From Sulfitobacter sp. M39 (GTDB taxonomy: Bacteria > Pseudomonadota > Alphaproteobacteria > Rhodobacterales > Rhodobacteraceae), in NCBI RefSeq assembly GCF_021735935.1, contig NZ_WMDZ01000001.1:1612001-1676000 (forward strand): a stretch of 64,000 nt of DNA, in the 5' to 3' direction. Shown here one piece after another: positions 44,768-62,865 of this stretch. The translations under genes were made by a program, and so were the position numbers. Under the pieces are notes generated by a model. The model had not been told where the DNA came from, ran no database searches, and worked only from the letters and a program-made list of their open reading frames with translations. Every line of letters begins with the position of its first letter. The first letter of the stretch is position 1.

Positions 44768-44851
44768 GCGGGTGTGGCGGAATTGGTAGACGCACCAGAT
44801 TTAGGTTCTGGCGCCTATGGCGTGGGGGTTCGAGTCCCTTCACCCGCACCA
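44768..44851 (+). tRNA. tRNA-Leu (anticodon UAG)
   Basis: Acceptor stem GCGGGTG pairs with CACCCGC, the discriminator A and CCA are encoded, the anticodon loop TTTAGGT lies between CCAGA and TCTGG (anticodon at 44802-44804), and a long variable arm (CGCC TAT GGCG) marks a class II tRNA. Its 3' end is the insertion site of the element; the gene stays intact because the repeat restores it. Confidence 0.95.
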
Positions 44852-44868
44852 CTTCAACTTATTGATAA
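44826..44868 (+). repeat. attL: 43-bp direct repeat at the tRNA-Leu 3' end
   Basis: Identical to 62823-62865. It covers the T-arm and acceptor 3' half of the tRNA plus 17 bp beyond it, ending TTATTGATAA. Flanks differ on both sides, which fixes the limits. Confidence 0.95.
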
Positions 44869-44909
44869 CTAACAATACCCTTGCAAATAAGGCCGGAAGT
44901 CCGTTCAAC

Positions 44910-44928
44910 GGTTACAGTTTTGGTTACA
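44910..44928 (+). promoter_or_regulatory. Left arm-type integrase binding sites (GGTTACA x2)
   Basis: GGTTACA occurs at 44910-44916 and 44922-44928, 42 bp inside attL. The same heptamer is repeated twice in the same orientation 40 bp inside attR (62769-62783). Paired heptamer repeats flanking the core are typical of arm-type sites for tyrosine recombinases. Confidence 0.6.
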
Positions 44929-44940
44929 AACGGGTTTACC

Positions 44941-46503
44941 ATGGCTGGCAAGATCAGGCATCTCATCAACCGGTCCGGGCGGTATCACGCACGCCTTGTT
45001 GTCCCTAAAGACCTTCGCGGTATCGTCGGTAAGACCGAGCTTCGCAGCCCGCTAGGGGCGGACTACAGGCAAGCCCTCAAGCTGCTGCCCGGGGCCGTGG
45101 CGCAGCTACAGCACCAGATCGCGCTGGCTGAGCGCGAAGGATCGCAAGGGAGGCAGAAGCCGGTCCAAGCTCGGTATCCTCTGGCACCGGACCAAATTGC
45201 TCTGAGCCACTACAATCAGCGTTTGGCGTTCGACGACCTTCTGCGGAATGATTCACGATACGCTAACACCGGCATTGATGATCTCTACGTTTATCAACTG
45301 CGCCAAGCAGTAGCAGGCCGCTGCAGTGATGATGAGCTGCAGTCGGTCATCGGTGATCAGCTCGAAAGATTCAGGGCAGCTGGGAATATCGATGCGGTGC
45401 AGGGCAGCGATGAATGGCGGGTGATCGCTCGTGCCTTGTGCAGCGCAGAGCTAGAAGCGCTGGCGCGCGTCGCTGAGCGTGATGAAGGTGATTACACCGG
45501 CACGCCCGCGGCACCGATAATTAAGGACGCCGCGCAGGCTGAAAAAGCGCCTGCGCCAGTCAGCTTGTCCGGCCTTTGGACAGATTATTTGAACAGTCGC
45601 ATGCAGGCCGGTTTCATGCGCGACAAGGGGCAGCGCCAGCGCCCGGTGATCGACAACCTGCGCAAGTTTCTCAAGCACAACGACGCTGGTCGCGTGACGA
45701 AGAAAGACGTGCTGGCTTGGCGAGACTACCTTATGAAAACGCTATCGCCAAAGACAGTGAACGATATCTACCTCTCAGCTCTGAAATCAGTGCTGGCATG
45801 GGCTGTGGAAAATGACCGTCTGCCCGAGAATGTAGCAGCAACGGTGCGACAGCCTAAACCGCGCAAAGTGTATGGGCGTGAACGTGGATACACCGACGAC
45901 GAAGCCAAGAAGGTATTGAAGGCCTCTCGCACTTATCAATCGACACCGGACGAGTTCGGGCGGGTGCGTGAATCCATGCAGATGGCAAACGTGAAGCGGT
46001 GGGTGCCGATCATCTGTGCGTTTACCGGTGCGCGGGTTTCAGAGATCATTCAGTTGCGGAAAGAGGACGTGACCAAGGTGGGCGAACATTGGGTCGCTCG
46101 GATCACACCAGATGCTGGCACTGTCAAATCTGGTGGCTACCGAGACGTGCCGTTACATTCGCAAATACTAGACCAAGGTTTTTTGAAATTCGTCGATGAT
46201 GCCGTCGAAGGCCCACTGTTCCACAATGCGACCAAGCCCGAGAGGTTCAGAAAGGCGGCTGTGATCGTATCGAACAAGTTGTCAGACTGGCTGCGCAAGG
46301 ATGGGCTGGTCCCAGATGGTATTCAGCCGAACCATGGGTGGCGTCACAGGTTCAAAACGCAGTGCCGAGAACTAGGTATCTCTGATCGTGTTGCTGATGC
46401 CATTCAAGGCCATGCGGGGAGGACCGCTGCCGACCACTATGGTGATGTGACGATCAAGACTAAGGCTGATGCTCTCCGGCAGCTGCCTTTCTACAGTATG
46501 TAG
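44941..46503 (+). CDS. int: Tyrosine recombinase/integrase
   Basis: A 520-residue phage-type integrase. The N-terminus (KIRHLINRSGRYHARLVVPK) resembles the DUF6538-type domain found in alphaproteobacterial integrases; a core-binding domain spans about residues 215-310. The catalytic domain shows Arg in FTGARVSEIIQLR, the HxxR box in NHGWRHRFKT, His in GHAGRTAADHYGD and the nucleophile Tyr in the same motif. ATG at 44941 is preferred over an in-frame TTG at 44881, which would run through the arm sites. It lies about 70 bp from attL, facing into the element. Confidence 0.94.
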   Translation: MAGKIRHLINRSGRYHARLVVPKDLRGIVGKTELRSPLGADYRQALKLLPGAVAQLQHQIALAEREGSQGRQKPVQARYPLAPDQIALSHYNQRLAFDDLLRNDSRYANTGIDDLYVYQLRQAVAGRCSDDELQSVIGDQLERFRAAGNIDAVQGSDEWRVIARALCSAELEALARVAERDEGDYTGTPAAPIIKDAAQAEKAPAPVSLSGLWTDYLNSRMQAGFMRDKGQRQRPVIDNLRKFLKHNDAGRVTKKDVLAWRDYLMKTLSPKTVNDIYLSALKSVLAWAVENDRLPENVAATVRQPKPRKVYGRERGYTDDEAKKVLKASRTYQSTPDEFGRVRESMQMANVKRWVPIICAFTGARVSEIIQLRKEDVTKVGEHWVARITPDAGTVKSGGYRDVPLHSQILDQGFLKFVDDAVEGPLFHNATKPERFRKAAVIVSNKLSDWLRKDGLVPDGIQPNHGWRHRFKTQCRELGISDRVADAIQGHAGRTAADHYGDVTIKTKADALRQLPFYSM

Positions 46504-46518
46504 AGCAAGTTAGGTTCA

Positions 46519-47371: not shown

Positions 47372-48559
47372 ATGCCACTCATCGACCGTTTCTTTCGCAA
47401 GCGCGAAACCAAAGCTCTGAGTCTGACTGAGCCAGAGGCGTTTGGGCTGTTTGGTGCAACTCCAACGGCTACCGGCATATATGTCTCCGGCAACTCAGCC
47501 TTGCGCGTTCCAGCCGTTGCCTGTGCTGTGGCGCTCATCTCTGAGACCATCGGTGCGATGCCTGCAAAGGTCCATCTGACCGACACCAAAGAAGCGGCAA
47601 AGGGGCAGGGCGCTTACCGGCTTGTGCATGACGAGGCGAACGAGTGGACCAGCGCAGGTCAACTGCGCGAACACCTGACCATCGACGCGCTGCTGACAGG
47701 TAACGGCTATGCCCACGTTGTCAGGCTGACCGGTGGCGAACCCTTTGAACTGCATCGGATCGACCCTGCCAGTGTTCGCGCAGATCACGAGCCGGACGGT
47801 GAACCTTTCTATATTGTCCAGACCGATCAAGGGCCGCGCCGCTTCGGCTATCGCGACATCTTGCACGTGCAGCCCTTTGGTGGGGTTTCCCCGATCACGC
47901 TCGGTCGCGAGGCTATCGCCCTTGCGCTCGCCTTTGAACAGCACGTGGCTAGCCTGTTTGCCAATGGCGCGCGCCCGTCCGGCATCATCAAGAGCGACAA
48001 GGTGCTGGATGTAGAGGCTAAGAAAAAGATCGCGGCTTCATGGTTCAACACCCACGCGGGGCGCAACGCAGGCGGCACTGCCATTCTTGATGAGGGTATG
48101 AGCTATGACCAGCTTTCGATGACACTTGCCGATGCGCAGTTCGCAGAGAACCGGCTTGAGCAAATCCGTGAGATCGCCCGTGTCTTTCGGGTTCCCCCTA
48201 CGATGCTTTTCGAGCTGACACGCGGCACATGGTCCAACACTGAGGAAATGGCTCGCCAGTTCTACGCCATCACGCTCAAGCCGTGGCTGACAAGCTGGGC
48301 ATGGGCATATGCGCGCGTCCTGTTCACGCCAGAGGAACGCGCTGCGTTCTATGTAGAGTTTGTTACCGATGATCTGCTGACCACCAACGCCTCAGACCGC
48401 GCCGGAGCCTACGGGCAATACCGCAGCATGGGTGCGATGACGGCAAATGAAGTGCGCAGCGGCCTGAATCTTGCGCCGCTTGCCGATGGCAACAGCCTTG
48501 CCAACCCCTACACCACATCCGGTGCGGCTGAACCCGTGGCACAGGAGCAAGCAGCATGA
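47372..48559 (+). CDS. HK97-family portal protein
   Basis: A 395-residue portal that forms the DNA entry ring of the capsid. The N-terminal SGNSALRVPAVACAVALISETIGAMP and later ILHVQPFGGVSPITLGREAIALA segments (each shown in part) and the central RVFRVPPTMLFELTRGTWSNTEE motif are family hallmarks. It is first in the late operon, whereas in most phages the terminase genes come before it. Stop overlaps the next start as ATGA. Confidence 0.95.
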   Translation: MPLIDRFFRKRETKALSLTEPEAFGLFGATPTATGIYVSGNSALRVPAVACAVALISETIGAMPAKVHLTDTKEAAKGQGAYRLVHDEANEWTSAGQLREHLTIDALLTGNGYAHVVRLTGGEPFELHRIDPASVRADHEPDGEPFYIVQTDQGPRRFGYRDILHVQPFGGVSPITLGREAIALALAFEQHVASLFANGARPSGIIKSDKVLDVEAKKKIAASWFNTHAGRNAGGTAILDEGMSYDQLSMTLADAQFAENRLEQIREIARVFRVPPTMLFELTRGTWSNTEEMARQFYAITLKPWLTSWAWAYARVLFTPEERAAFYVEFVTDDLLTTNASDRAGAYGQYRSMGAMTANEVRSGLNLAPLADGNSLANPYTTSGAAEPVAQEQAA

Positions 48560-48885
48560 TCACGCACACCGGATTTTTCGGCACGGCTGAGCACAAATTC
48601 ACCCTGACCGACGACATGATCACGGAGCTGGAGCGCATCACAGAAAGCGGGATCGGTGCGTTTTACCAGCGAGCCGTCGCGATGCTGTTCAAAGCAGCCG
48701 ACCTTGCCGAAGTCATCCGGCTTGGACTGATCGGCGCGGGCATGCACCCGCAAGAGGCGATGCAGCTTGTGGACACATATGCCCGCAACCGCCCGATGGC
48801 GGAAACCTATCCACTTGCCCTCGATATCCTTGACGCCCGCTGGAACGGCACCGCCGCCCCGGCAACCGGAGACACCGCAGCATGA
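48556..48885 (+). CDS. GTA gp10-like tail assembly chaperone candidate
   Basis: A 109-residue protein. The pattern EHKFTLTDDMITELERITESGIGAFYQR followed by ADLAEVIRLGLIGAGM and RPMAETYPLALDIL (each shown in part) matches proteins annotated as gene transfer agent family/GTA gp10 tail chaperones. Such genes normally sit between the major tail protein and the tape measure; here it lies between portal and capsid genes. ATGA overlaps on both sides. Confidence 0.72.
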   Translation: MITHTGFFGTAEHKFTLTDDMITELERITESGIGAFYQRAVAMLFKAADLAEVIRLGLIGAGMHPQEAMQLVDTYARNRPMAETYPLALDILDARWNGTAAPATGDTAA

Positions 48886-50444
48886 CCACCCGTTTAGAGT
48901 TTAAGGCTGATCTGACCGTCACACCCGAAGGGCTGATCGAAGGCATCGCGTGGCCATTTTGCAGCGCTGATCGCGTCGGTGATGTGATTGAAAAGGGTGC
49001 CATCGCCGCGCCGGTTACTTTGCCGATGCTGTTTGCCCACGATCAGGGGCAGGTCATCGGTGTCTGGGATCAGATCGAAGAAACCGAAGCGGGTCTGATC
49101 GTGAAGGGCCGTTTACTGATCAACGATGTAGCACGGGCGCGTGAAGTGCAGGCGATGATCAGCGCTAAGGCTGTATCCGGCCTGTCCATCGGTTTTGTCA
49201 CCACCAACTCAACACCCCGCGCCAAGGGCCGCACCATCACCGCGCTGTCCCTGCATGAAATCTCTGTTGTCGCTGTGCCGTGTCATCCGGGCGCACAGAT
49301 CACTTCCCTGAAATCGGACGGCACCGCAAAGCCTACTAAGGAACAACACATGAATACCGAAACTATCGAAGATCCGATCAATCCATCTGCACCGGCCAAC
49401 GCGCCCCAGATGGACACCAAAGCTTTCGACGAAATCAAATCCCGGCTGGATAAGATCGAAGCGAAAGCAAACCGCCCGCAAGGCGTTCACATCACTGGCC
49501 CGGTCACAGACCCCGAAACCAAGGCGTTTGGTAACTTCCTGCGCCGTGGTGTCGAACGGATCGCGCCAGAGGAAGTCAAAGCCCTGACCGTCGCAAATGA
49601 CGCCAGCGCGGGCTATCTGGCACCGCAAGAGTTTGGCAGTGAACTGATTAAGCTGCTGACAGAGTTCAGCCCGATCCGGTCCTACGCGAAAGTCATTTCG
49701 ATCAGCGCACCCTCTATCGTGTATCCGCGCCGTGTCACCGGCACCTCAGCAACGTGGGTTGCCGAGATCGCCAGCCGCACCGCATCCGGCATGACGTTTG
49801 AACAGGTGACAATGACACCGCACGAACTGGCCACGTTCACGGACGTGTCGAACGCGCTGCTTGAAGACAACGCCTATAATCTTGAAGGTGAGCTGCTGTC
49901 TGACTTCGCCGAGTCTTTCGCGAGGACAGAAGGGCTGGCATTTGTCAAAGGCACTGGCGCTGGCCAGCCGTTCGGCATCATGGCCGCGTCTGGCATCGCC
50001 GAGCTGAAAACCGGCGTCGCGGCAAACTTCCCCGTGTCAAACCCTGCTGACGTGCTAATCGCGATGTATCACAAGATCGCCACGACTTACGCGCAGTCCG
50101 GTGTCTGGATGATGAACCGCAACACGCTGGCCGTCGTCCGGCAGTGGAAGGATGGCAATGGCCGCTATCTCGTGCTTGATCCGATCATCGCTGGCGCACC
50201 TTCGACGCTGCTTGGCCGTCCGGTGGTTGAAATGCCGGATATGGACGATATCGGCGCGGGCACTTACCCGATCCTGTTTGGCGACATGCAGGGCTACCGG
50301 ATTATTGACCGCGTGGGCCTGACCACACTGCGCGACCCCTACAGCCTTGCTGTAAATGGTCAGGTGCGTTTCCATGCCCGCAAGCGTGTCGGTGCTGACG
50401 TGACGCACCCTGATCGTTTCATCAAGTTGAAGTGCGCGGCATAA
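48882..50444 (+). CDS. Prohead protease - major capsid protein fusion (HK97 type)
   Basis: A 520-residue fusion. Residues 1 to about 145 are an S78/U35-type prohead protease (GLIEGIAWPFCSADRVGD; His in LPMLFAHDQ; Ser in KAVSGLSIGF). Residues 157-240 are a delta-domain-like linker with a short coiled coil (FDEIKSRLDKIEAKA), and residues 245-520 are the HK97-fold capsid (ASAGYLAPQEFGSELIKLL, SGVWMMNRNTLAVVRQ, GRPVVEMPDMDD). An internal in-frame ATG at 49350 has AAGGAA six bases upstream and could yield free capsid protein. Confidence 0.93.
   Translation: MTTRLEFKADLTVTPEGLIEGIAWPFCSADRVGDVIEKGAIAAPVTLPMLFAHDQGQVIGVWDQIEETEAGLIVKGRLLINDVARAREVQAMISAKAVSGLSIGFVTTNSTPRAKGRTITALSLHEISVVAVPCHPGAQITSLKSDGTAKPTKEQHMNTETIEDPINPSAPANAPQMDTKAFDEIKSRLDKIEAKANRPQGVHITGPVTDPETKAFGNFLRRGVERIAPEEVKALTVANDASAGYLAPQEFGSELIKLLTEFSPIRSYAKVISISAPSIVYPRRVTGTSATWVAEIASRTASGMTFEQVTMTPHELATFTDVSNALLEDNAYNLEGELLSDFAESFARTEGLAFVKGTGAGQPFGIMAASGIAELKTGVAANFPVSNPADVLIAMYHKIATTYAQSGVWMMNRNTLAVVRQWKDGNGRYLVLDPIIAGAPSTLLGRPVVEMPDMDDIGAGTYPILFGDMQGYRIIDRVGLTTLRDPYSLAVNGQVRFHARKRVGADVTHPDRFIKLKCAA
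49338..49352 (+). promoter_or_regulatory. Internal ribosome binding site and start for free capsid protein
   Basis: AAGGAA at 49338-49343 and ATG at 49350, in frame with the fusion at codon 157, at the junction of protease and capsid parts. A product from here (364 residues, MNTETIEDP...) would be a normal HK97-type capsid precursor. Confidence 0.6.
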
Positions 50445-50445
50445 G

Positions 50446-51069
50446 ATGATGCAGCGGCACGCCTCTGATATCGCTCTGGCCTACGGTGGCAACACTGTCT
50501 GGCTCAAGCCGTCGCTGCGTGCCGCGACGCACTTAGAAGCATTGCATGGCGGGTTTCCCGCCCTGCTTTCCAAACTGCATGAATTTGACACCGCGACGAT
50601 CCGCGAGATCATCCGGTATGCAGCATTTGACCGTGCGGCGGCACAGACGATGCTTACCGCCCTATCTGGCGCTTCAATGCGCACGGTCCAGCAAGTCACG
50701 CTTGCACCTGCCTTCGCACTTCTCACAGCGCTGACGACCCCGGTATCTGAAAAGATCACGGGCGAGGCCGCGAAGGCACCTGCTGCTAAGGCAGTCGCAT
50801 GGGCTGACCTGTATGCAGACCTCTACAAACTGGCGACAGGTTGGCTTGGCTGGACGCCGGACACAGCTTGGAACGCCACGCTGCCGGAAATCCTGAACGC
50901 CTTTGACGGTCACGTCGATCAGCTAAAGGCCATTCACGGCGGTGGAGATGACCAAGATGCCAGCGCACCCACCATGAACAACGATCAGCGACAGGCGAAC
51001 ATTGACGCTGGCCTTGATCCTGATTTTGATCGCGCCGGACTGCATGCCTTGAAGGCGAAGATGACATGA
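50446..51069 (+). CDS. Tail chaperone-like two-part protein
   Basis: A 207-residue protein. The first half (YGGNTVWLKPSLRAATHLE, TIREIIRYAAFD) resembles GTA gp10-type chaperones; the second half (LYKLATGWLGWTPDTAWNAT, PEILNAFDGHVDQL) resembles the small GTA TAC_6 family that often follows. It therefore looks like a fusion of the two chaperone proteins usually encoded before the tape measure. It is placed directly after the capsid gene, which is unusual. Function is inferred from pattern only. Confidence 0.6.
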   Translation: MMQRHASDIALAYGGNTVWLKPSLRAATHLEALHGGFPALLSKLHEFDTATIREIIRYAAFDRAAAQTMLTALSGASMRTVQQVTLAPAFALLTALTTPVSEKITGEAAKAPAAKAVAWADLYADLYKLATGWLGWTPDTAWNATLPEILNAFDGHVDQLKAIHGGGDDQDASAPTMNNDQRQANIDAGLDPDFDRAGLHALKAKMT

Positions 51070-51410
51070 GCCGCCCGCCGCACCTTTGCACCTGTGGTGC
51101 CATCGTGGCGTATGGCGAGCGCTGTGCCTGCAGGGTTGCGGCCACTCGTGCGCGGAATAAGCGCCATGACGCGACCCGGCCCAGCGCCCGTGAGCGTGGC
51201 TATACGCGCCAATGGGAAGTTGCCCGCCAGGAATGGCTGCAGTTCAATCCTGTCTGCACACATCCGGGCTGCAATGCCTTGGCAACTGTGGTGGATCACA
51301 TCACGCCGCATAAAGGCGACATGATGCTGTTCTGGGATAAATACAATTGGCAGAGCCTCTGCGCCCCTTGTCACAACCGGCACAAACAACGGTTGGAGCG
51401 CTCTCTGTGA
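51066..51410 (+). CDS. Phage HNH endonuclease
   Basis: A 114-residue HNH nuclease of the kind found with HK97-type packaging genes, where it assists terminase cutting. Two Cys-rich parts are seen: an N-terminal CTCGAIVAYGERCACR knuckle, then CTHPGCNALATVVDHITPHKGD and LCAPCHNRHKQRLE with the HNH residues. It overlaps its neighbours (ATGA upstream, GTGA downstream). Confidence 0.9.
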   Translation: MSRPPHLCTCGAIVAYGERCACRVAATRARNKRHDATRPSARERGYTRQWEVARQEWLQFNPVCTHPGCNALATVVDHITPHKGDMMLFWDKYNWQSLCAPCHNRHKQRLERSL

Positions 51411-51814
51411 ACTCAGATCAAGCCCTCTGGTGTGAAGTGTTGTCCTTGGCGATCAGTGATGCCCTTACTGGCACATCGTCTGCCAGCAAGAGCCGCGAGA
51501 CGCGCATTCACGAGATCGAGCGCAATCGCAAATACCTGACCATCCAGAACAACGACTTTGACATGGTTTGCTCACTCGCCGGTGTAGATCCGGTCGCAAC
51601 CCGTGAGCACTTGATCAGGCGCATTGCAGATGCACCAGCACCAGAACAGCTGATCAGCGTCAAACGCCGCGCACAGCGCCGCACAACCCGTTTCCGGGAG
51701 CGCACAAGCACCATGCGGGGGGTAGGCAAAAACATTGCGCAAGATCAGGGGACCGGCGGGGGGACAGCCGCACAAGAGACCCCGAATATAATTTTTCAGG
51801 ATAAATCCGCATGA
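51407..51814 (+). CDS. Hypothetical phage protein (135 aa, GTG start)
   Basis: The start is taken as GTG at 51407, overlapping the HNH stop as GTGA, with GGAG upstream. The protein has an N-terminal helical part (LWCEVLSLAISDALTG), a central CSLAGVDPVATREHLIRRIA motif that recurs in uncharacterised alphaproteobacterial phage proteins, and a basic, probably disordered tail. A DNA-binding role near packaging genes is possible but not shown. Confidence 0.7.
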   Translation: MNSDQALWCEVLSLAISDALTGTSSASKSRETRIHEIERNRKYLTIQNNDFDMVCSLAGVDPVATREHLIRRIADAPAPEQLISVKRRAQRRTTRFRERTSTMRGVGKNIAQDQGTGGGTAAQETPNIIFQDKSA

Positions 51815-52107
51815 CGACTACACCACTGCCATTGCTCAAAGCGCAGTTGAACCTTGAGCACGATCTGGACGACGCACTGCTGACGCACAAGTTGGCCGTA
51901 GCGGAAGAATGGATTATGAACCACACTGGCGCGCCTTTTGCTGAGCCGGTGCCTCCATCCCTGACCGAAGCCGCATTGCAGCTTGCCGCCTATTGGTATG
52001 TCAGCAGGGAAGCGGCGACAGATATGCGCCTGACCGCCGTGCCATTTGGCGTGCTGGAGTTGATTACCCCCTATCGCGAGAGTGTGACCGGCCATGTCGC
52101 GGCTTAA
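51811..52107 (+). CDS. gp6-like head-tail connector
   Basis: A 98-residue protein with the LKAQLNLEHDLDDALLTHKLAVAEEWI pattern (in part) of HK97 gp6-type adaptor proteins, which form a ring beneath the portal. Strong Trp/Tyr helix AAYWYVSREAA follows. ATGA overlap with the gene before. Confidence 0.88.
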   Translation: MTTTPLPLLKAQLNLEHDLDDALLTHKLAVAEEWIMNHTGAPFAEPVPPSLTEAALQLAAYWYVSREAATDMRLTAVPFGVLELITPYRESVTGHVAA

Positions 52108-52513
52108 AGGATCAACGGATCTCGAGCGCCGTCTTCTCGCCATCCCTCTTGAGGTGCTGGCAGAGCTGCGCCCAGCGCTGGTGAAAGGCGCTCAGGACAT
52201 CGCAGACGCTATGGAGCAGCTTGCACCAGAGGACACTGGCGACCTTGTGAATACCATCTCGGTCACCGGCCCCGGTGGCACAACTCCCGCCTATGCGTCC
52301 GGTGGTGGCAGCGTGACCCTTGCCAATAATCAGGCTGCCGTGACCGTGGGTAGTCCGGATATGCGCCACGGCCACCTTCAGGAATTTGGCACCGTGAACC
52401 ATGAGGCGCAGCCGTTCATGCGGCCCGCATTCCGGTTGAAGAAAGCCAAGGTGATGGCTCGGATCAGCCGCGCCGTTGCTAAGGCCATTAAGAACGCAGG
52501 TGACGGCAAATGA
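52094..52513 (+). CDS. HK97 gp10-family head-tail joining protein
   Basis: A 139-residue protein. Motifs ADAMEQLAPEDTGDLVNTISV and HLQEFGTVNHEAQPFMRPAF (in part) are characteristic of the gp10 family, which attach tails to heads. It overlaps gp6 by 14 bp and the next gene by 4 bp. Confidence 0.9.
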   Translation: MSRLKGSTDLERRLLAIPLEVLAELRPALVKGAQDIADAMEQLAPEDTGDLVNTISVTGPGGTTPAYASGGGSVTLANNQAAVTVGSPDMRHGHLQEFGTVNHEAQPFMRPAFRLKKAKVMARISRAVAKAIKNAGDGK

Positions 52514-52932
52514 TCGAACCATCCGTCGCACTGCAGACCGCATTGCGTGCCACCCTTATCGCTGACCCCGCTGTAAGCGCTCTGGTGCAGCCAGATCGTA
52601 TTCGGGCTGGTTCTACGCGCCCTGATCGCTTCCCGTGCGTGATCATGGGCCACGCTCAAACGCACTACCTAGGCCGCGCATCCGGAGAGCAGCACTTGGC
52701 TAGGGTCAATCTCGACGTGCATATCTGGGCAATTGAAGACGGTGCCGATACCGCCAAGGCCATCGGGTTTGCCATGTCAAAGACGCTGATTGGTATGGCT
52801 GATCATCAGGACGGCTTTGCCATCGACCAACTCGACCTACCGCGTGTCATTTGGATGCGCGACCCGCAACCTGAACTGGCTTACACCCACGGCGTGATCG
52901 AAGTTGAAGCGGTGATCAGGTGGCGGGCATGA
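52510..52932 (+). CDS. DUF3168 tail completion/terminator protein
   Basis: A 140-residue protein of the DUF3168 family (tail terminator or tail completion, GTA gp8-like). Visible: LQTALRATLIADPAVSALVQ, RIRAGSTRPDRFPCVIMG and a C-terminal VIEVEAVIRWRA strand. In a siphophage it caps the tail tube at the head-proximal end. Its presence shows the encoded head is meant to meet a tail. Confidence 0.88.
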   Translation: MIEPSVALQTALRATLIADPAVSALVQPDRIRAGSTRPDRFPCVIMGHAQTHYLGRASGEQHLARVNLDVHIWAIEDGADTAKAIGFAMSKTLIGMADHQDGFAIDQLDLPRVIWMRDPQPELAYTHGVIEVEAVIRWRA

Positions 52933-53249
52933 TCCGGGCCGGCGCAATGCGTGAGCAGATCACCTTTGAGTGCAAGCTGGAGACGGTGCAGCCGTCTGGT
53001 GCGGTGCTAGTGCAATGGGTTCCTGAGCAGACCCTACGCGCAGAGCTGGTGCAGGAGAGTGCTGACGCCTTCCTGAGCAACGTAGAGCGCACCGAGGACC
53101 GTAAGGTGTTCAAGCTTTGGGCAACTAACTGGATCACCACAGATATGCGCGTGACACACGCAGGCTACACCTACCGGATTGTCCGGATCTTGCCATTGGA
53201 TCGGCTGGCGCTGGAGTTGCACTGCGTGAACGCGGTGGATGAAACATGA
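52929..53249 (+). CDS. Phage head-tail adaptor (head closure)
   Basis: A 106-residue head-tail joining protein (SPP1 gp16/HK97 gp7-like). RAGAMREQITFECKLE opens it and WITTDMRVTHAGYTYRIV lies in the C-terminal half, both typical. ATG at 52929 overlaps the preceding stop as ATGA; an upstream GTG at 52920 is also possible. Confidence 0.85.
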   Translation: MIRAGAMREQITFECKLETVQPSGAVLVQWVPEQTLRAELVQESADAFLSNVERTEDRKVFKLWATNWITTDMRVTHAGYTYRIVRILPLDRLALELHCVNAVDET

Positions 53250-53641
53250 GCGCGCACCTGCGCGGGGTGAAACCGCAAGCCAAAGTCACGAAAGATGCGC
53301 TGACCAAAGCACCGCCGGTGCCTGAGTATTTCAGCACCTACGCGGCGGGCGAGTGGAAACGGATCATGCCGCGGTTGATCAAGGACCGGGTGTTGACCAA
53401 AGCTGATCTGGCAGGCGTCGAACACTACTGCATGATGATTGGCGTGGTGCGCGAGATCGAAAACAACCGTAGCCTGAACGCTGGTGAGATCGACCCTAAG
53501 ATGTTCGGTGTTCAGAACCGTGCCGCCCAAACAGCGCGCCAGCTCGCCGCGGAGTATGGGCTGTCACCGGTGAGCCGTGCGCGTATCGGCACCAACGCTG
53601 ATGACGGCGCGGACGATGACAACCCTTTGAACGTCCGGTGA
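53246..53641 (+). CDS. terS: Terminase small subunit, P27 family
   Basis: A 131-residue protein. The pattern AAGEWKRIMPRLIKDRVLTKADLAGVEHYC (in part) and the C-terminal FGVQNRAAQTARQLAAEYGLSPVSRARI (in part) are P27-family terminase hallmarks. It recognises the packaging site. Its place after the connectors rather than before the portal is a rearranged order. Confidence 0.9.
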   Translation: MSAHLRGVKPQAKVTKDALTKAPPVPEYFSTYAAGEWKRIMPRLIKDRVLTKADLAGVEHYCMMIGVVREIENNRSLNAGEIDPKMFGVQNRAAQTARQLAAEYGLSPVSRARIGTNADDGADDDNPLNVR

Positions 53642-53644: not shown

Positions 53645-55261
53645 ATGACCAGCGCAAGCGCGTTCCCCGCGTGGATATACGACGCCAGCCCGATAGCCGA
53701 TCCGTTCGGCTATGGCGAAAGGGCCGTGCAGTTTCTGCGCCGCTTGCGCCATCCAAACAGCGACGCACCGGGCGGTGCTTTCCAGCTTGCGCCGTGGCAA
53801 GAGCGGATCGTGCGGCGGATCTATGGCCCCAGGCACCCGGACGGGCGCAGGATCGTGCAAAACGTGTTCTTTCTAGTCCCGCGCGGCAACCGTAAAACCA
53901 GTCTGGCTGCTGCACTGGCGCTACTGCACACCATTGGCCCCGAACGGGTGAGTGCCGGACAGGTGTTGTTTGCCGCTGCAGATCGTGATCAGGCTGGCAT
54001 CGGCTTTCGTGAAGCCGCAAATATCGTGCGCATGGACAAGCGCTTGATCGCGGCAACTCGCATCTACGACGCGTTCAACAGCGCCAAGCAGATCGTCTAC
54101 AATGCTGAGAACGTCACGCTGCGCGCCCTTTCTTCTGACGGCGGTGCCGCGCACGGCCTGACACCTACATTCACGCTGATTGACGAAATCCACATCTGGA
54201 AAGGCCGCGACCTTTGGGAAGCGCTGCGTAGTGGTGCAGCCAAGGTGCGCGACAGCCTGACCGTGATCGCCACGACTGCCGGACGCGGTGCCGAGACCTT
54301 GGCATCGGAGCAGTATAATTATGCCCGCCGCGTCGCGCTGGGCGAAATCGACAACCCGGCCTATCTGCCTATCCTGTTCCAAGCTGAACCTGACGATGAC
54401 TGGCAGGATGAAACGGTATGGCATCGCGCCAACCCCGGTCTTGCACATGGTTTCCCCTCCATCGACGGCATGCGCGGCTTAGCGAAAGAGGCAGAGAACA
54501 AGCCTGCAGACCGGGCAGCGTTCCTGCAGTTCAATTTGAACGTTTGGCAGGCCAACAGCCGTGACCCGCTCTTCGATATGGCGACCTATGATGCCCGAGT
54601 GTTTGAACCGGACTTTGACGCGCTGGCAGAGCTTCCCTGTTATCTTGGCGTTGATATGTCTCTCTCTGGTGACTTGACCGCGGTGGTCGCGGCTTGGCGT
54701 CATGATGATGACCAGATCACGGTTCACCCTTGGCTGTTTGTGCCCAGTGATGACCTCAAGGGCCGCGCTGATCGCGACGGGCTGCCCTATGAGGAATGGC
54801 GCGACGCTGGACTGATCTTTGTCACACCCGGCCCGATCATCGACGCTGGGCTGATCGAAGACCAGATCAGGGAGATATGCGCGACCAATGACGTGCAGGA
54901 GATCGCCGTAGACCCGCACCTTGCGCGCCGCTTGATGCAAAGCCTGCATGATGACGGTCTGCCAGTGATTGAATATCGCCAGACGCCGCTGAATATGGGT
55001 GTGGCCGCCGGTGATCTTGAACGCACGGTGAACGGCGACCTGATCCGGCACGCTGATCATGCAGCGCTGCGCCAGCACTTCGACAGTGTTGTCGCATCAC
55101 GCAATCCGACATCTGGCCTGATCCGCATGCACAAGGGCAAGAAGACAGACCGGATCGACGGGGCAATCGCCGCCGCGATGGCGGTGTCACGCGCCTGCGC
55201 CGCTGAAACCAACCTGAGCAAATACAACGCACCCGAAGCCGAAGGGCTTTTCATCTTTTAG
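53645..55261 (+). CDS. terL: Terminase large subunit
   Basis: A 538-residue packaging motor. The ATPase part has a Walker A-like VPRGNRKTSLAAAL near residue 79, Walker B FTLIDEIHIW near residue 178 and TTAGRG coupling motif; the nuclease part starts near residue 335 with LGVDMSLSGDLTAVVAAW and later acidic residues (EIAVDPHLARRL; KKTDRIDGAIAAAMA). Length is normal. It follows terS by 3 bp. Confidence 0.95.
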   Translation: MTSASAFPAWIYDASPIADPFGYGERAVQFLRRLRHPNSDAPGGAFQLAPWQERIVRRIYGPRHPDGRRIVQNVFFLVPRGNRKTSLAAALALLHTIGPERVSAGQVLFAAADRDQAGIGFREAANIVRMDKRLIAATRIYDAFNSAKQIVYNAENVTLRALSSDGGAAHGLTPTFTLIDEIHIWKGRDLWEALRSGAAKVRDSLTVIATTAGRGAETLASEQYNYARRVALGEIDNPAYLPILFQAEPDDDWQDETVWHRANPGLAHGFPSIDGMRGLAKEAENKPADRAAFLQFNLNVWQANSRDPLFDMATYDARVFEPDFDALAELPCYLGVDMSLSGDLTAVVAAWRHDDDQITVHPWLFVPSDDLKGRADRDGLPYEEWRDAGLIFVTPGPIIDAGLIEDQIREICATNDVQEIAVDPHLARRLMQSLHDDGLPVIEYRQTPLNMGVAAGDLERTVNGDLIRHADHAALRQHFDSVVASRNPTSGLIRMHKGKKTDRIDGAIAAAMAVSRACAAETNLSKYNAPEAEGLFIF

Positions 55262-57693: not shown

Positions 57694-58461
57694 TCATTTT
57701 TTTTTGAGCGCAATAAGCGCTTGCTTCTTCGCTTTAAGTTTAGCGGTTTTTTGGTCGTATATTTCCGATAGAGCGTCTTCATAAATATCCAACAAATCGA
57801 AATAGTCGCCCTCTTTAACTTTGTCGCCGTGTGTGCCGAGATTCCCAATGATCCTCATCGCGGTCATCGACTCCGCTAGATCAGCATCGTTTGACTGTTT
57901 TTCAAAAAGATCAATGCGGTCAAACAGGTCTAGTCTTCGGAGCTTTCCCTTCTTGTCAACCGCGGTTGTTGCTATACCTTGTTCGTCTAGGACACGCTCG
58001 AGACTCGTTCGAATCCTTGAAGTTGAAGCGGATAGGTCCATCCAGTAGAGTTGGAAGGCTAGCTTTAGCTCGTCCTTCACAGGTTCCGGCAAATTTTTGG
58101 CGATTGGAAAAAGAGGTGGCGCGGGTGCCATACTGGCTGGCTTCAACCAATTATAGTAAAATTGATGGGGCTGACCTACTTCATCGTAGTCATGAAGTGA
58201 GTCCACACCTGCCCGTCCGCTTACTGCGACGACTTCGCCGCAGATTGGATTGTCGCATGTCAGCATGGTGGTGAATGCCATGCGCATCCACTCAGGTTCC
58301 CACTCGTCCATTTTGTGCTCCCGTTCCGAATGAGCTGGCTCAACCAAAACAACGGGGCTATCGCCGCGTCTGACACTTCCCTTAGTGCAGCGCGGACATG
58401 GAAATGAAACAGTGAACGATTCCGCAATATATTTTCGCCATCTGGAACGATCTATCGTCAT
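57694..58461 (-). CDS. DUF4145 zinc-ribbon cargo protein
   Basis: A 255-residue protein. The N-terminal third has two Cys pairs (FPCPRCTKG; CDNPICGEV) forming a zinc ribbon. The rest is a DUF4145 domain: LPEPVKDELKLAFQLYWMDL, RIRTSLERVLDEQGI and MRIIGNLGTHG (in parts). DUF4145 occurs alone and fused to restriction and other defence proteins; its activity is unknown. It is leftward, AT-richer than the late operon and lies just past it, the usual place for moron or defence cargo. Confidence 0.82.
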   Translation of the reverse strand: MTIDRSRWRKYIAESFTVSFPCPRCTKGSVRRGDSPVVLVEPAHSEREHKMDEWEPEWMRMAFTTMLTCDNPICGEVVAVSGRAGVDSLHDYDEVGQPHQFYYNWLKPASMAPAPPLFPIAKNLPEPVKDELKLAFQLYWMDLSASTSRIRTSLERVLDEQGIATTAVDKKGKLRRLDLFDRIDLFEKQSNDADLAESMTAMRIIGNLGTHGDKVKEGDYFDLLDIYEDALSEIYDQKTAKLKAKKQALIALKKK

Positions 58462-58860: not shown

Positions 58861-59242
58861 CGACCAGCCATAGGTCGCAGGTTGTATCCCCGGATGCTCC
58901 CCGTCTTAGATGACGGACGCAAGCCGGTAAGGTTGCTCCCCGGCATTGCCGAATAGCACGAGCAAAGACAGCGGCTCTGAGGTAATCGTCTCACCCGCTG
59001 GACATGGGGCAGGTTGAAGGTAAGCCGCCCATGTCGCGCAATCTTCGGATTGCGACCGCGTTGACCGAAAGGTCAGGAATCGCCGAATATCGCTGGGACA
59101 ATGGACGCCGCCCAGTTTGGTCACGACAGGCCAAGGTTCGGTTCACCACTTCGACGTAAGCTACATCGTTTCCCCCTGATCTGGTCATACACACCAAGGC
59201 ATGTCCTTGGTCCTCTACACGTATGGTCAGATCAGGGGGAAA
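58861..59242 (+). ncRNA. Candidate structured non-coding RNA
   Basis: Eight consecutive stems on the plus strand: 58861-58877, 58901-58916, 58923-58944, 58969-59000 (CAGCGG/CCGCTG), 59001-59035 (GACATGGG/CCCATGTC), 59037-59054 (CGCAATC with a UUCG loop), 59062-59075 (TGACC with a GAAA loop), and 59169-59242, a 22-bp stem containing an inner ACCAAGG/CCTTGGT hairpin. G-U wobbles in the long stem, the cUUCGg loop and the GAAA loop all make sense only as plus-strand RNA. No known family could be assigned by eye. Confidence 0.5.
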
Positions 59243-59384: not shown

Positions 59385-59496
59385 GAGTAGGTGGGTTTTA
59401 TTATCAAAGCACAATTGTGCGCATCCCACTTGGCCGCTGTCTATAAATGAGTTGCGAACTTTTTCGCAGAGTGAAACACAATTCAGAAGGATTAAT

Positions 59497-59706
59497 ATGA
59501 CCGATAACGACTGTGCGCACATGGCCTATGGGATTGAGCGTCAAGGGTTCAAACACCTCACCGACGGCATCCATCGTGCGAAATTTTACGGGCTGATCCA
59601 GGCCGGTGAACTCATCACAAGGCACCTGCAGAACTGCCCGTCCGGCACCACCATCGGTGATCTGTTGAAAAAGACCGACGACACAGGTGTGCTGCCCACC
59701 AAATAA
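59497..59706 (+). CDS. Small hypothetical protein (69 aa)
   Basis: Starts MTDNDCAHMAYGIERQGF with AGAAGGA 5 bases upstream; an in-frame TTG at 59452 is less likely. Helical, charged, ends DDTGVLPTK. No recognised domain. It is followed by a 10-bp terminator stem at 59724-59755, so it forms its own transcription unit. Confidence 0.65.
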   Translation: MTDNDCAHMAYGIERQGFKHLTDGIHRAKFYGLIQAGELITRHLQNCPSGTTIGDLLKKTDDTGVLPTK

Positions 59707-60118: not shown

Positions 60119-60134
60119 ATGTTAGGAGGAAATG

Positions 60135-60677
60135 ATGGCACTTACACCTGCAGAAAAGCAAAAGGCTTATCGCGAGCGGAAAAAGGCGGAGGCCGAGGTC
60201 GCTCAAACAAAAGGGAAGGATATCGCGGTAAGCCTCTACCGGAAGCCGTTCTCTCAGTGGGCAGAAAATGACCCGAACATAGGTGAGTGCGATATGTATA
60301 TGGCGCTCGCGGGAATGGAGTTCCCGGGATTTGACGACGAGCGCGACGCGCAAGACTATGTCATTGATCTCGAAGCGTTCGGTGACATTGATATAGTTGG
60401 AGCTGATCACGTTGATCACGTTGAAGACGCTAAGGGCGCAATCGGACGCGCCGAGCTGGTAATTAGTTGTATGCTAGATACGATTGTGACGCTGGCGAAT
60501 TCGGTCAATGAATACAAGCGCAGTGAGATTCAAGCGCGCATAAAAGAGCTTGAGCAGTCGACTGATATCGATCGAGCAGCCGCTATGAAACAGGCCGTAA
60601 AGCTGAATAAGATTCTGAACCAGTTAGATAAACCGGTCAGGAGACCTTTCCCACAGTGGAAGGTTACGGGCATCTAA
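60135..60677 (+). CDS. Hypothetical phage-type protein (180 aa)
   Basis: Begins MALTPAEKQKAYRERKKAEA, a basic helical start common in small phage regulatory-region proteins. The middle is acidic and contains GADHVDHVEDAKGAIGRAEL; the rest is helical. AGGAGG sits 5 bases before ATG 60135 (another ATG at 60132). No domain recognised. It lies directly behind the second operator, suggesting it is an early or regulated gene of the element. Confidence 0.7.
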   Translation: MALTPAEKQKAYRERKKAEAEVAQTKGKDIAVSLYRKPFSQWAENDPNIGECDMYMALAGMEFPGFDDERDAQDYVIDLEAFGDIDIVGADHVDHVEDAKGAIGRAELVISCMLDTIVTLANSVNEYKRSEIQARIKELEQSTDIDRAAAMKQAVKLNKILNQLDKPVRRPFPQWKVTGI

Positions 60678-60757
60678 GCCCAAAGTCGCGAAGTGGTCCG
60701 GTCGCCAAACTAGAACCACTTCGCATTTTTTGAATGTTCAGAAAAAGGAATGAACAC

Positions 60758-61192
60758 ATGAATGTTTATACCATTCAACCAGCCTCTAAAGCAACACTGA
60801 CACAAAATCAGTTGTTTAATCTGTATCTTGACGCTCCATGCCGCGATGGAGGGAAGTCCGCACTCTCAGCTGTCAAATTTAGTGAAGACAGCATTTTTGA
60901 GCGCTACTTTCCCACTTACTGTTCTGATACTGAATGTTTGCCCGACGAACTTGGAGACGATATCGCAGAAGCACTACGCACCTGCGAAGAACCCCTGGTC
61001 GAACTGGAAGCGGTGTTTAATGCACTTGAAGTAATGGCTGTTATGCTCCGGGTCATTAAGAACGACTTTGAGCGGCTTGCTGAGGAAACGCGGACGCCAG
61101 AGCCAGGTCCAGACGCCACTGACCACGAATATAGTCAGTGGGAAGATAACCCCCGGTATATTATCGCTGGGGTGGGGAGGACTGCAGTATGA
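60758..61192 (+). CDS. Hypothetical protein (144 aa)
   Basis: Starts MNVYTIQPASKATLTQNQLF, with AAGGA 9 bases upstream. Acidic, mostly helical, with a Glu/Leu-rich part (EEPLVELEAVFNALEVMAVM). No recognised family. Its stop overlaps the next start as ATGA, so the two are coupled. Confidence 0.65.
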   Translation: MNVYTIQPASKATLTQNQLFNLYLDAPCRDGGKSALSAVKFSEDSIFERYFPTYCSDTECLPDELGDDIAEALRTCEEPLVELEAVFNALEVMAVMLRVIKNDFERLAEETRTPEPGPDATDHEYSQWEDNPRYIIAGVGRTAV

Positions 61193-61434
61193 AAACTAGG
61201 GTTCAGGAAGAGTTTGAAGAAGCTCTCGAATTTTATGTCGATGATGTCGATAAAGATACGAGTCGTTTGAAGCGGGCATCACAACTTCTTCTCGGCGATG
61301 AGACTGCGATAGAAAATCCATTTTGCGGACAATGGATTGCTAAACTTGAAGGTCAGACCTTACCTATTGTCGATCTTACCTACTCCGGCGCTGCGGAATC
61401 AGTGTTGTCTCATCTGAGAAAATCACAAGCTTAG
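61189..61434 (+). CDS. Hypothetical protein (81 aa)
   Basis: Small acidic-helical protein (RVQEEFEEALEFYVDDVDKD at the start; LPIVDLTYSGAAESVLSHL near the end). Translationally coupled to the 144-aa gene. Unknown function. Followed by a strong bidirectional terminator. Confidence 0.65.
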   Translation: MKTRVQEEFEEALEFYVDDVDKDTSRLKRASQLLLGDETAIENPFCGQWIAKLEGQTLPIVDLTYSGAAESVLSHLRKSQA

Positions 61435-61442
61435 CATCCAAT

Positions 61443-61468
61443 TGCCCGCCGGATCACACCGGCGGGCA
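61443..61468. terminator. Bidirectional terminator
   Basis: TGCCCGCCGG and CCGGCGGGCA are perfect 10-bp arms around ATCACA, between convergent genes. Confidence 0.7.
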
Positions 61469-61478
61469 TTGCAACCAC

Positions 61479-62204
61479 CTAATCGGATACTAATGAAGTC
61501 CGCAATTCTTCGACGGACCACCATGGGCGCGCAGCATGAACCATCCTATGGCAGTTTGCGCAAAGCAAAGCTAAGTCAGCTAGTTTGGTTTTCTCACCTG
61601 GGATTAATTCAGAAACCGGCTTTGTGTGATGACATTCGATGAAATTCGCGCCTCGTTCTCCATACTTAGAAGAGAAGTCAAAGTTACATACTTCACAAAA
61701 TAGCGTGCCATGCCTTTTGCGAAAGCTATCCTTCTTTCTCTTTACGATCGCTCGGTCACGTTCCCGATAAGTATGCAATCGGGTCAAAACACGACCTTCC
61801 TGCGCGTCGACCTCATCTGCCGCCATGCTCACCATCGGCATTTCGCCTAACTTAACGACCGCGCGAATTGCGTCCGCGACGCTTGCCAGTCTAGCGGGAT
61901 CAGTAATGAATTCGTCCATAAGAACCTGTTCCAGACGGTTGCCGCGCGAAAGCCCCTTAGCGTCAACATCTGGATCTCGGGAGCGAAAATTCTGTAGCTT
62001 CATTGACGCTCCTACTGCGTTCCGGAAGGTATCTGTTCCCGTCAATCCGAGCGCTCTGCCAACAGCGTTCACCTCTCGCGCTAAGCGCTGAACTTCCTCG
62101 CTGGTGTCTTCAAATGACTTGCCCCTATTTTTTACATAGAAATCGAGCGCCAAGATAAGCTCGTCTCTCGACCAATTTGGGTTACGCTTCGACTTTTCTG
62201 CCAT
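61479..62204 (-). CDS. HNH endonuclease cargo (McrA-like)
   Basis: A 241-residue protein. The N-terminal part (NPNWSRDELILALDFYVKNRG; SRGNRLEQVLMDEF) is shared by HNH proteins near restriction or defence genes. The C-terminal HNH domain has CEVCNFDFSSKYG, then IECHHTKPVSEL and LALLCANCHRMVHA, i.e. two Cys pairs and the catalytic His residues. It could be a type IV-like restriction enzyme or a solitary nuclease. It is leftward, AT-rich, and is the rightmost large gene of the element. Confidence 0.85.
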   Translation of the reverse strand: MAEKSKRNPNWSRDELILALDFYVKNRGKSFEDTSEEVQRLAREVNAVGRALGLTGTDTFRNAVGASMKLQNFRSRDPDVDAKGLSRGNRLEQVLMDEFITDPARLASVADAIRAVVKLGEMPMVSMAADEVDAQEGRVLTRLHTYRERDRAIVKRKKDSFRKRHGTLFCEVCNFDFSSKYGERGANFIECHHTKPVSELIPGEKTKLADLALLCANCHRMVHAARPWWSVEELRTSLVSD

Positions 62205-62338
62205 TCAATGCATTCACTCTGGTTTGTTCTGATTAAAGCCATTTTGCTTATTCTGTTGCTATAAAAGCCCCTCTACCCTAGATTGTAAGCACTGGATCAA
62301 GTATCGAACAAGGACTTTTTCGTAACTACTCATTAAGG

Positions 62339-62536
62339 ATGACAGCTTTGAAAAAATTGTTACTCGCAGCACCCTTTATTTTCTTTTTGGGGGCAGGTCC
62401 CATTGCAGCCGAGGACGGCGTCGACTCCATTCTTGGACCTATGCAGACAGCCATCCAGCATGGCGGAGGCTGTCGTAAAGATTCGCCTTCTGGTCAATGT
62501 TGCCATGCAGGAAGTAAGCCGTATCACTGCCATTAG
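62339..62536 (+). CDS. Small secreted Cys/His-rich protein
   Basis: A 65-residue protein with a clear signal peptide (LKKLLLAAPFIFFLGAGPIAA) and a mature part of about 40 residues ending HGGGCRKDSPSGQCC then HAGSKPYHCH: three Cys pairs or metal-type residues and four His. AAGG directly abuts the ATG, so the TTG at 62348 may be the true start. The ending resembles YHCH-type small extracytoplasmic proteins. Function unknown; metal binding is a guess. Confidence 0.65.
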   Translation: MTALKKLLLAAPFIFFLGAGPIAAEDGVDSILGPMQTAIQHGGGCRKDSPSGQCCHAGSKPYHCH

Positions 62537-62545
62537 AAAAGCGTG

Positions 62546-62572
62546 TGCCCTACCACGCTGGTAGGGCATTTT
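62546..62572 (+). terminator. Intrinsic terminator after the small secreted protein
   Basis: TGCCCTACCA, a CGC loop, TGGTAGGGCA, then TTTT: a perfect 10-bp stem with T run. Confidence 0.8.
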
Positions 62573-62822
62573 AATTACCTGTGATCTCCACCAGAACTTG
62601 CCGGTGTGAGCTGACCTGATTTCTTGTGCCTACGAATAACGGGCATGCTCTCACACAGTTAATCGTCGATGCGCCAGTGTGCACCTCTTTACCAACCACA
62701 GCGCTTGCGCTTCATATCTGCCTGCACAATTATTATTGACGTTAGGTAATGATGCCCATTCTGACGGTGGTTACATGGTTACAAAATGCCGCGTAAGTCA
62801 TTGATTTATAACGCCTCGGGTA
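62573..62822. other. Gene-free right end of the element
   Basis: No gene. It holds the GGTTACA arm sites near its right edge, next to attR. Nothing else recognised. Confidence 0.6.
62769..62783 (+). promoter_or_regulatory. Right arm-type integrase binding sites (GGTTACA x2)
   Basis: GGTTACA at 62769-62775 and 62777-62783, in the same orientation as the left pair, 40 bp inside attR. Confidence 0.6.
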
Positions 62823-62865
62823 GGGTTCGAGTCCCTTCACCCGCACCACTTCAACTTATTGATAA
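62823..62865 (+). repeat. attR: 43-bp direct repeat with tRNA-Leu 3' fragment
   Basis: Second copy of the attL sequence. It contains only the T-arm and acceptor 3' half of tRNA-Leu, preceded by unrelated DNA, so it is not a functional tRNA. Confidence 0.95.

Follow-up and report, generated by a model that had tools for sequence, protein, structure and literature searches.

What kind of element encodes a complete set of head and packaging proteins and, at first sight, almost no tail? This question is raised by an element integrated at a tRNA-Leu gene of Sulfitobacter sp. M39, within a 64,000-nt stretch of contig NZ_WMDZ01000001.1 (hereafter the window), for which an initial annotation had proposed a capsid-forming satellite. 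The evidence presented below points, with a probability of about 0.7, to an intact capsid-forming phage satellite that has its own head, neck, tail ruler and tail assembly chaperones and would obtain tail tube and tip from a helper siphophage. Because the element appears to make its own head, motor and ruler while no tube or tip is recognizable, hybrid tails that include parts of another virus are, by analogy, the most likely outcome.

Boundaries and gene content of the element

Exact 43-bp direct repeats bound the element, and the spacing from repeat to repeat is 17,997 bp (~18.0 kb; Table 1). They were the sole direct-repeat family reported when positions 42,000-64,000 were scanned with a 14-nt exact seed and a 20-nt minimum. 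The left attachment (att) copy, attL, overlaps the tRNA-Leu gene. An empty site was found in a genome of the same genus (G406), in which the joined flanks aligned over 583/583 nt (97%) and a 303-nt junction at 98.7%. The tRNA-Leu location, the exact repeats and the size of 18.0 kb given in the initial annotation were thus confirmed by the repeat scan, by ARAGORN and by this empty site. In another genome of the genus (G405), the same flanks hold an island of ~56 kb (C1:1323794-1380614) with apparent transposase and membrane-protein genes. The island is unrelated, as 22 window proteins gave no tblastn match to it at E 0.001.

Twenty window proteins were compared with the Pfam and PHROGs families at a cut-off of E 0.01. 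An integrase gene and a minus-strand accessory gene are followed by a late operon that runs from the portal gene to the gene of the tape measure protein (TMP), and then by a right arm. The late operon comprises, in this order, portal, TAC_11, protease-capsid fusion, p207, HNH, p155, gp6-like connector (Ad1), HK97-gp10-like protein, gp17 terminator, head closure protein (HCP), terminase small subunit (TerS), terminase large subunit (TerL) and TMP, and neighboring genes abut or overlap throughout. The right arm contains a DUF4145 gene, small open reading frames (ORFs) and an HNH nuclease gene. Matches to Pfam and PHROGs verified the integrase, portal, protease-capsid fusion, connectors, TerS, TerL and TMP. 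Genes for tail tip, fibres, lysis, replication and repressor had not been seen in the initial annotation, and the scans gave the same outcome: none of the 20 proteins matched a distal tail, hub, fibre, lysis, repressor or replication family. The major tail protein, tip, lysis and replication genes expected of a complete temperate siphophage were likewise not recognized among them, with a caveat on the naming of TAC_11 that is taken up below. The description of the element as having almost no tail held only in part. Tube and tip were indeed not found, but two chaperone-like genes, the TMP and completion and terminator proteins are present.

Conservation across a family of related elements

The search for relatives covered 394 genomes from the bacterial family, with the window's genome among them. 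TMP matches at E 0.001 were obtained in 24 of them, several being weak, and TerL matches at E 1e-50 in 16. Seven of 17 other neighbourhoods share the order from portal to TerL (G025, G252, G382, G026a, G031, G329 and G016). The TMP is present in six of these seven, G016 being degraded, with a cut TerL and no TMP. G252 has its integrase at the right end, the six others at the left. The remaining ten consist of four distant relatives (G046, G047, G250, G026b), three neighbourhoods that are cut by contig ends or are remnants (G091 twice, G272) and three that share the TMP and have other heads and, in the gene map, full tails (G234, G311, G042). Within the window's own genus (58 genomes), a near-full TerL of more than 33% identity was found only in the window's genome and in G437 (76%); G452 gave an 85% TerL match over 41 residues.

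TerL-alignment scans covered the best 80 of 273 genome relatives and the best 80 of at least 592 IMG/VR viral contigs, and all fractions given below hold for this sample, chosen by TerL similarity. Removal of 30 near-duplicates (97% identity) from 172 TerL loci left 142, of which 38 were short of at least one of portal, capsid and TMP in the stretch available. The other 104 comprised 94 loci of type A, seven of type B and three of neither type (G042, a full prophage; L104; L233). Type A, the window's type, was recognized by the p207 or TAC_11 cluster, the conditions of its selection being TerL, portal, capsid, TMP and p207 or TAC_11; type B was defined by a major tail protein cluster.

With tblastn at E 0.001, portal, TAC_11, protease-capsid, p207, HNH1, gp10, gp17, TerS, TerL and TMP were each detected in 94/94 type A elements, HCP in 78/94, Ad1 in 74/94, p155 in 45/94 and p181 in 26/94. 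The script-made gene calls miss genes: counted by cluster, TAC_11 was present in 79/94, p207 in 92/94 and HNH1 in 0/94, as against 94/94 each by tblastn. In sets of loci that had not been selected on the genes in question, the TMP occurred in 118 of 124 dereplicated loci with at least 3.2 kb after TerL, and portal plus capsid in 93 of 95 loci with at least 8.6 kb before it. Origin entries were available for 87 of the 94 type A elements (30 Rhodobacterales, 22 Hyphomicrobiales, 35 without an order). They name 34 genera; the marine genera Yoonia, Roseovarius, Ruegeria and Sulfitobacter are represented by carriers in the matched records.

Direct repeats of at least 17 bp at both ends were found for 47 of the 94 type A elements, which measured 16,159-20,168 bp with a median of 17,917 bp. 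The search for att sites allowed roughly 10.5-22 kb, and the narrow size range was thus not imposed by it. Although tRNA genes played no part in the search for repeats, 43 of the 47 bounded elements lie at such a gene, eight tRNA types being represented. Among the IMG/VR relatives, many are contigs of 14-20 kb. The largest bounded element (G031, 20.2 kb) has an apparent transposase gene inside TerL and appears to be a recently inactivated copy. When the window was compared with its near relatives L158 and L160, dN/dS was 0.025-0.26 for all twelve genes tested (TMP, 0.14 and 0.085; TerL, 0.025 and 0.044; capsid, 0.037 and 0.048). Against the more distant L162, eight genes gave values of 0.06-0.25, while three were saturated and one was not called. 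As judged from these sequences, the element appears to belong to a large family of intact elements.

The clusters present in more than 100 loci were TerL, Ad1, TMP, TerS, gp17, capsid, portal, HCP, p207, gp10, integrase and TAC_11, and of these 12 only p207 has no named family. The major tail protein cluster (phrog_158, E 2e-22 for L142) was found in 0/94 type A elements. The method is able to detect this protein, since it was seen in the seven type B loci, the type being defined by it. Conserved size and missing tail genes in several genera had been named in the initial annotation as support for a satellite, and this is the pattern that emerged from the 94 elements and 34 genera, with 16.2-20.2 kb for the 47 bounded copies.

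In addition, 32 tail and lysis queries from full-tail prophages and one type B element, with tail-gene names assigned from position and appearance, were compared with 1684 type A proteins. Matches were obtained for TMP (93), gpM (12), gpI (10) and TAC_11 (2), besides one gpJ-to-gpI match. Queries for tube, Dit, hub, NlpC, gpL, gpK and lysis proteins gave no match among the 1684 proteins. Close relatives with a full tail, which according to the initial annotation would have marked the window copy as a deletion derivative, did not appear; the 32 queries returned TMP, chaperone, gpM and gpI families only. The assignments of gpM (PF05939, phrog_14; 12/94 elements) and gpI (phrog_32; 10/94) are clear. 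Both are patchily distributed; a quick TerL tree requires 12 changes to account for gpM, present in 13 rows, and 8 for gpI, present in 10. The operon position of gpI varies among elements. The last ~120 residues of the TMP match lambda-family TMPs at 35-40% among the 20 matches listed of 528, and they also match long TMPs of prophages with tails like those of gene transfer agents (GTAs). Thus, the C terminus represents a motif of TMPs in general that does not identify the helper, and mimicry of a helper TMP by this end was rejected.

In type B relatives (G046, G047, G250, L142, L148, L153, L157), the major tail protein gene precedes the neck genes or lies within their group, and the p207 and TAC_11 clusters are missing. 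Four att-bounded ones measure 17.1-17.7 kb, and hub, fibre and lysis genes were not seen in the type B gene maps, on which no family scan was made. Protease and capsid, fused in the window copy, are split in several type B loci (G047, G250, L142, L148) and in some type A loci.

The structural genes of L158 and L160 match the window at 69-98%, p155 in L160 excepted, whereas the seven right-arm genes had no match in L160 and L162 except p84 (38%, L160). Thus, the core appears to be fixed and the cargo exchanged. Among the minus-strand gene calls of the 47 att-bounded elements, 30/73 lie between p207 and Ad1 and 29/73 after the TMP. One kind of recurring cargo is similar to type IV restriction enzymes (E 3e-19); in L098:7156-7989(-) and L110:7209-8048(-) it occupies the opposite strand in the interval from p207 to the connector gene. 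A DNA methyltransferase-like gene stands beside TerS in several relatives (L135:8966-9604, phrog_757; L233, G252, G016). To the right of the TMP, 21/94 type A elements encode a protein of cluster x318 (e.g. L155:13645-14598, L102:14319-15293). All 27 members of the cluster contain HxHG (27/27), together with a Y (27) and a K (26) spaced Y-x-x-K, motifs that we take to be those of HUH replication initiators. No Pfam or PHROG family names the protein, which on these motifs is possibly a rolling-circle replication initiator; the window copy is without it. The AlphaFold2 (AF2) model of the recurrent right-arm protein p181 gave no match at E 0.001 in the viral structure library.

Table 1. Features of the tRNA-Leu element, in window coordinates
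Feature	Position	Strand	Basis
tRNA-Leu (tag anticodon), integration target	44768..44851	+	ARAGORN
attL, 43 bp exact	44826..44868	.	repeat scan; empty site in G406
Tyrosine integrase, DUF6538 + Phage_integrase, 540 aa from TTG (in-frame ATG at 44941)	44881..46503	+	PF20172 1e-8, PF00589 7e-7, phrog_1 1e-36
Accessory gene, 223 aa	46519..47190	-	phrog_19262 4e-6 (unknown function); window copy only, among 94 family loci
Portal	47372..48559	+	PF04860 3e-92
GTA-gp10 type protein (Phage_TAC_11), read as tail assembly chaperone	48556..48885	+	PF11836 9e-24, phrog_8985; tblastn 94/94
Prohead protease (S78) fused to HK97-type major capsid protein	48882..50444	+	PF04586 2e-18, PF05065 9e-81
p207, putative second tail-assembly-chaperone-like protein	50446..51069	+	PF09550 below cut-off; AF2 pLDDT 88, helical; Foldseek; tblastn 94/94
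HNH endonuclease (HNH1)	51066..51410	+	phrog_2323 5e-26; tblastn 94/94
p155, variable late-operon protein, possibly DNA binding	51347..51814	+	L078 relative matches HNH family phrog_3377, 9e-9; cluster 50/94
gp6-like head-tail connector (Ad1)	51811..52107	+	PF05135 1e-13
HK97-gp10-like neck/tail completion protein	52094..52513	+	PF04883 8e-8, phrog_5
gp17 tail completion / tail terminator	52510..52932	+	PF11367 1e-16, phrog_176
Head closure protein (HCP)	52920..53249	+	PF05521 1e-9
TerS (Terminase_4)	53246..53641	+	PF05119 2e-15
TerL	53645..55261	+	PF20441 2e-34, PF03354 1e-19
TMP, 793 aa	55273..57654	+	phrog_10574 2e-129; C-terminal match to lambda-family TMPs
Accessory gene, DUF4145 protein	57694..58461	-	PF13643 1e-13; 66% relative in L158
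Inverted repeat, 22-nt arms, 91%	59169..59242	.	repeat scan
p84, uncertain small ORF	59452..59706	+	38% relative in L160
p181, recurrent right-arm protein, helical AF2 model	60132..60677	+	cluster 31/94
p152, right-arm protein	60734..61192	+	cluster of 14 loci
p81, small ORF	61189..61434	+	ORF list
Accessory HNH nuclease, restriction-like	61479..62204	-	PF01844 4e-9; weak PADLOC HNH/type IV matches
attR, 43 bp exact	62823..62865	.	repeat scan

Possible source of the tail tube and tip

As a satellite with a helper-derived tube and tip, the element would integrate into tRNA-Leu by its own tyrosine integrase and would be excised after helper infection or induction. A procapsid would be formed from its own protease-capsid fusion and portal, and the ~18-kb genome would be packaged by its own TerS/TerL and HNH, probably in a cos-type manner. 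The element would supply the head-side neck (Ad1, head closure and HK97-gp10-like proteins), the terminator, the TMP and the two chaperone-like proteins. It would not provide a complete tail, and the tube and the receptor-binding tip would come from a helper siphophage. The helper tube might then polymerize around the satellite TMP, resulting in a chimeric tail of a length set by the satellite, by analogy with the satellite PLE11 of Vibrio cholerae. With the ratio given in the PLE11 paper (95 residues for 10-15 nm; PMC12987554), a TMP of 793 residues would correspond to a tail of roughly 85-125 nm. Simple tail-stealing would not need a TMP and two chaperone-like genes. With a TMP of its own, the satellite could control how long the tail becomes, could use its own chaperones to begin tail assembly and could escape competition for the helper TMP.

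Several observations weigh against this reading. The absence of a tube rests on homology, on one modelled fold (p207) and on the reading of TAC_11. The family PF11836 bears the name tail assembly chaperone, but its Pfam description is 'Phage tail tube protein, GTA-gp10', and phrog_8985 is likewise described as a tail tube protein; no PDB relative of TAC_11 was found at E 1. Two weak Foldseek matches of p207 (E 0.2 and 0.5) are named tail tube protein. No replication or excisionase gene was recognized among the window proteins scanned. No helper was found: the sole marker used, gpL, was detected 0 times in the window's genome and in 4 of the 394 family genomes, none of which is a carrier; the helper may be a virulent or another siphophage. 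Terminal overlaps of 15-399 nt, looked for as a sign of excision or circularization, were absent from 80 viral loci, some of which are stretches of longer contigs and uninformative in this respect. Finally, Mantel correlations with TerL over 83 loci were 0.36 for TMP, 0.52 for portal, 0.25 for capsid and 0.13 for integrase (0 of 200 permutations each). The TMP tracks TerL only moderately, which implies that modules are exchanged.

The reading of TAC_11 as a chaperone is based on the GTA of the same genome, in which the tube is encoded by a distinct gene (PF06199 4e-44, phrog_1407, TIGR02126 'phage major tail protein' 9e-27), directly followed by the PF11836 gene (104 aa; L268:11568-11882). From this pairing, a tube hidden in TAC_11 was judged unlikely. 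The 'tail tube' description of the TAC_11 family may mislead annotation. The AF2 model of p207 (40 sequences, pLDDT 88) consists of an N-terminal hairpin and helices. A Foldseek search of viral structures yielded one unnamed match at E 0.001 or better. Next came, at TM-scores near 0.45-0.5, an RcapNL (Rhodobacter phage) protein and proteins bearing the name tail assembly chaperone; the PDB gave no significant match. A tail tube hidden in p207 was rejected on the basis of the helical model, the chaperone-type viral matches and the PDB result, and the model suggests that p207 is a second tail-assembly-chaperone-like protein.

The element might instead be a small autonomous temperate phage, with a tube and tip too divergent to be recognized or with the TAC_11 protein as its tube. 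The presence of TMP, terminator and chaperone-like genes, the quick divergence of tube proteins, the database descriptions of TAC_11 and the lack of an assigned function for p155 and the right-arm proteins would all fit such a phage. We nevertheless regard it as improbable, given that the GTA of the same genome separates its TAC_11 gene from its tube gene, that 11 of the 12 widespread clusters belong to named head, neck, terminase, integrase, TMP or tail assembly chaperone families, with p207 modelled as helical, and that no lysis or replication family was matched by the window proteins scanned, the HUH-motif protein being present in 21/94 elements. Moreover, the space outside the 10-kb operon amounts to a few kb, is taken up by small variable genes and is too short for a set of tip, lysis and replication genes. 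Gene content would be identical if a capsid-forming satellite took complete helper tails and used its own TMP and chaperones as decoys that jam helper tail assembly. A satellite protein that interferes with helper tail assembly is known from PLE11 (Rta; PMC12987554). However, a full-length TMP under constraint, together with an own terminator and neck, is more than a decoy needs, and the same source reports the PLE11 TMP inside virions, so that this explanation, too, seems unlikely.

Far less weight is given to a prophage that was cut down by deletion and is now decaying. The missing genes would be explained in this way, and the relative G016 is itself degraded, but this alternative of the initial annotation fails on the same content being conserved in 94 dereplicated elements and on dN/dS values of 0.025-0.26. 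No tube or hub gene was found in the 94 elements, and tip genes are limited to gpM and gpI in a minority. On the sequence evidence, the element is not a decaying prophage. Hardly credible is a domesticated particle or satellite that uses the tail of the resident RcGTA-like cluster. This cluster is the only DUF2460 locus in the window's genome, and its gp10 belongs to the TAC_11 family, which is also represented in the element. Portal and protease-capsid were the only genes of the element with a tblastn match to the cluster at E 0.05 (28-40% identity), besides a connector fragment by blastp, whereas TMP, terminator, TerL and both chaperone-like genes had no match in it. Integrase and att sites argue against domestication. 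The GTA was rejected as tail donor, as it is present but matches by tblastn only the head genes of the element.

The preferred reading, a satellite that measures a tail built with a helper's tube and tip, would extend the chimeric-tail idea to satellites that make their own heads. It can tentatively be carried further, to an alphaproteobacterial satellite class that builds measured chimeric tails, with TMP, chaperones, neck and terminator of the satellite determining head side and tail length and with any siphophage at hand donating tube and receptor-binding tip, and that has patchily gained gpM and gpI as exchangeable adaptors between satellite TMP and helper tips; we consider this wider proposal possible, with the odds somewhat against it. 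If it is true, helpers would be chosen by tail-tip compatibility and not by hijack of capsid or terminase. Satellite-set tail length and the limits of helper range become directly testable in the marine carriers. Such elements may be mistaken for defective prophages or small complete viruses.

Comparison with known systems

Two more islands are present in the window's genome (G000:C1:1868113-1879098 and 1094419-1104485; loci L238-L241). The first (10.9 kb; tRNA-Asn, 52-bp repeat) carries integrase, TerL, capsid, protease and portal by PHROGs. The second (10.0 kb; tRNA-Phe, 49-bp repeat) carries TerL and capsid by blastp and is similar in layout by appearance. The TMP of the element had no second match in the window's genome, the two islands included. 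The window's genome thereby harbors three capsid-forming elements, which are of two kinds. The RcGTA-like cluster (G000:C1 about 1742827-1756678; L268) resembles the element in being alphaproteobacterial and in its TAC_11 family and HK97-type head genes. Its tail genes include one for the tube and extend to that of a 1310-aa hub-like protein, whereas the element has no full tail cluster but does have integrase and att sites. RcGTA is not known to have an integrase or att sites, and it packages host DNA.

An AlpA/Stl regulator and a primase-replicase are features of phage-inducible chromosomal islands (PICIs). Neither a regulator of this type nor a primase-replicase was matched in Pfam or PHROGs by the 20 window proteins. 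Capsid-forming PICIs (cf-PICIs; Alqurainy et al. 2023) depend on a helper for tails, as quoted in PMC10690885. By the definition quoted there, the element is like them in being integrated and in having its own capsid, protease, portal, connectors, TerS, TerL and HNH; a specific att site with an own integrase is a further common feature. This family differs in that a TMP and two chaperone-like genes are present in every member counted, with an own tail terminator, that the terminase lies downstream of the neck genes, that the size is ~18 kb and that the window copy is without a PICI regulator or primase match. Thus, we consider the element not an ordinary PICI but a new variant of capsid-forming satellite with an added tail-ruler module. 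A TMP in such satellites is not unprecedented, since putative tmp genes are indicated for a sampling of cf-PICIs in Extended Data Fig. 10b of the 2026 PLE11 paper (PMC12987554). In a literature search by listing, no alphaproteobacterial capsid-forming satellite was recognized. The Rhodobacterales counterpart suggested in the initial annotation gained support from the head and packaging features shared with cf-PICIs and from the conserved family, which includes Hyphomicrobiales and so goes beyond that suggestion.

The Streptomyces phage satellites MulchRoom and MiniFlayer likewise have their own packaging genes, and their small capsids measure about 43 nm (PMC10690885, main text). An integrase is present in MulchRoom, which is believed to use the tail of its helper. 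They differ from the element in their direct terminal repeats and host phylum, and no tape measure is named for them in that main text. Closest in tail strategy would be PLE11, for which PMC12987554 describes tails made from its own TMP and baseplate hub on a helper tube, with a tail assembly chaperone also encoded. The chimeric tails were demonstrated by western blot and mass spectrometry, and tail length changes as TMP length predicts. Both systems encode a TMP and, on the above reading of TAC_11, a tail assembly chaperone. PLE11 is unrelated to the element: it uses the helper capsid and parasitizes a contractile-tailed lytic phage, whereas the TMP described here matches siphophage and lambda-family TMPs and is carried by an element that encodes its own head.

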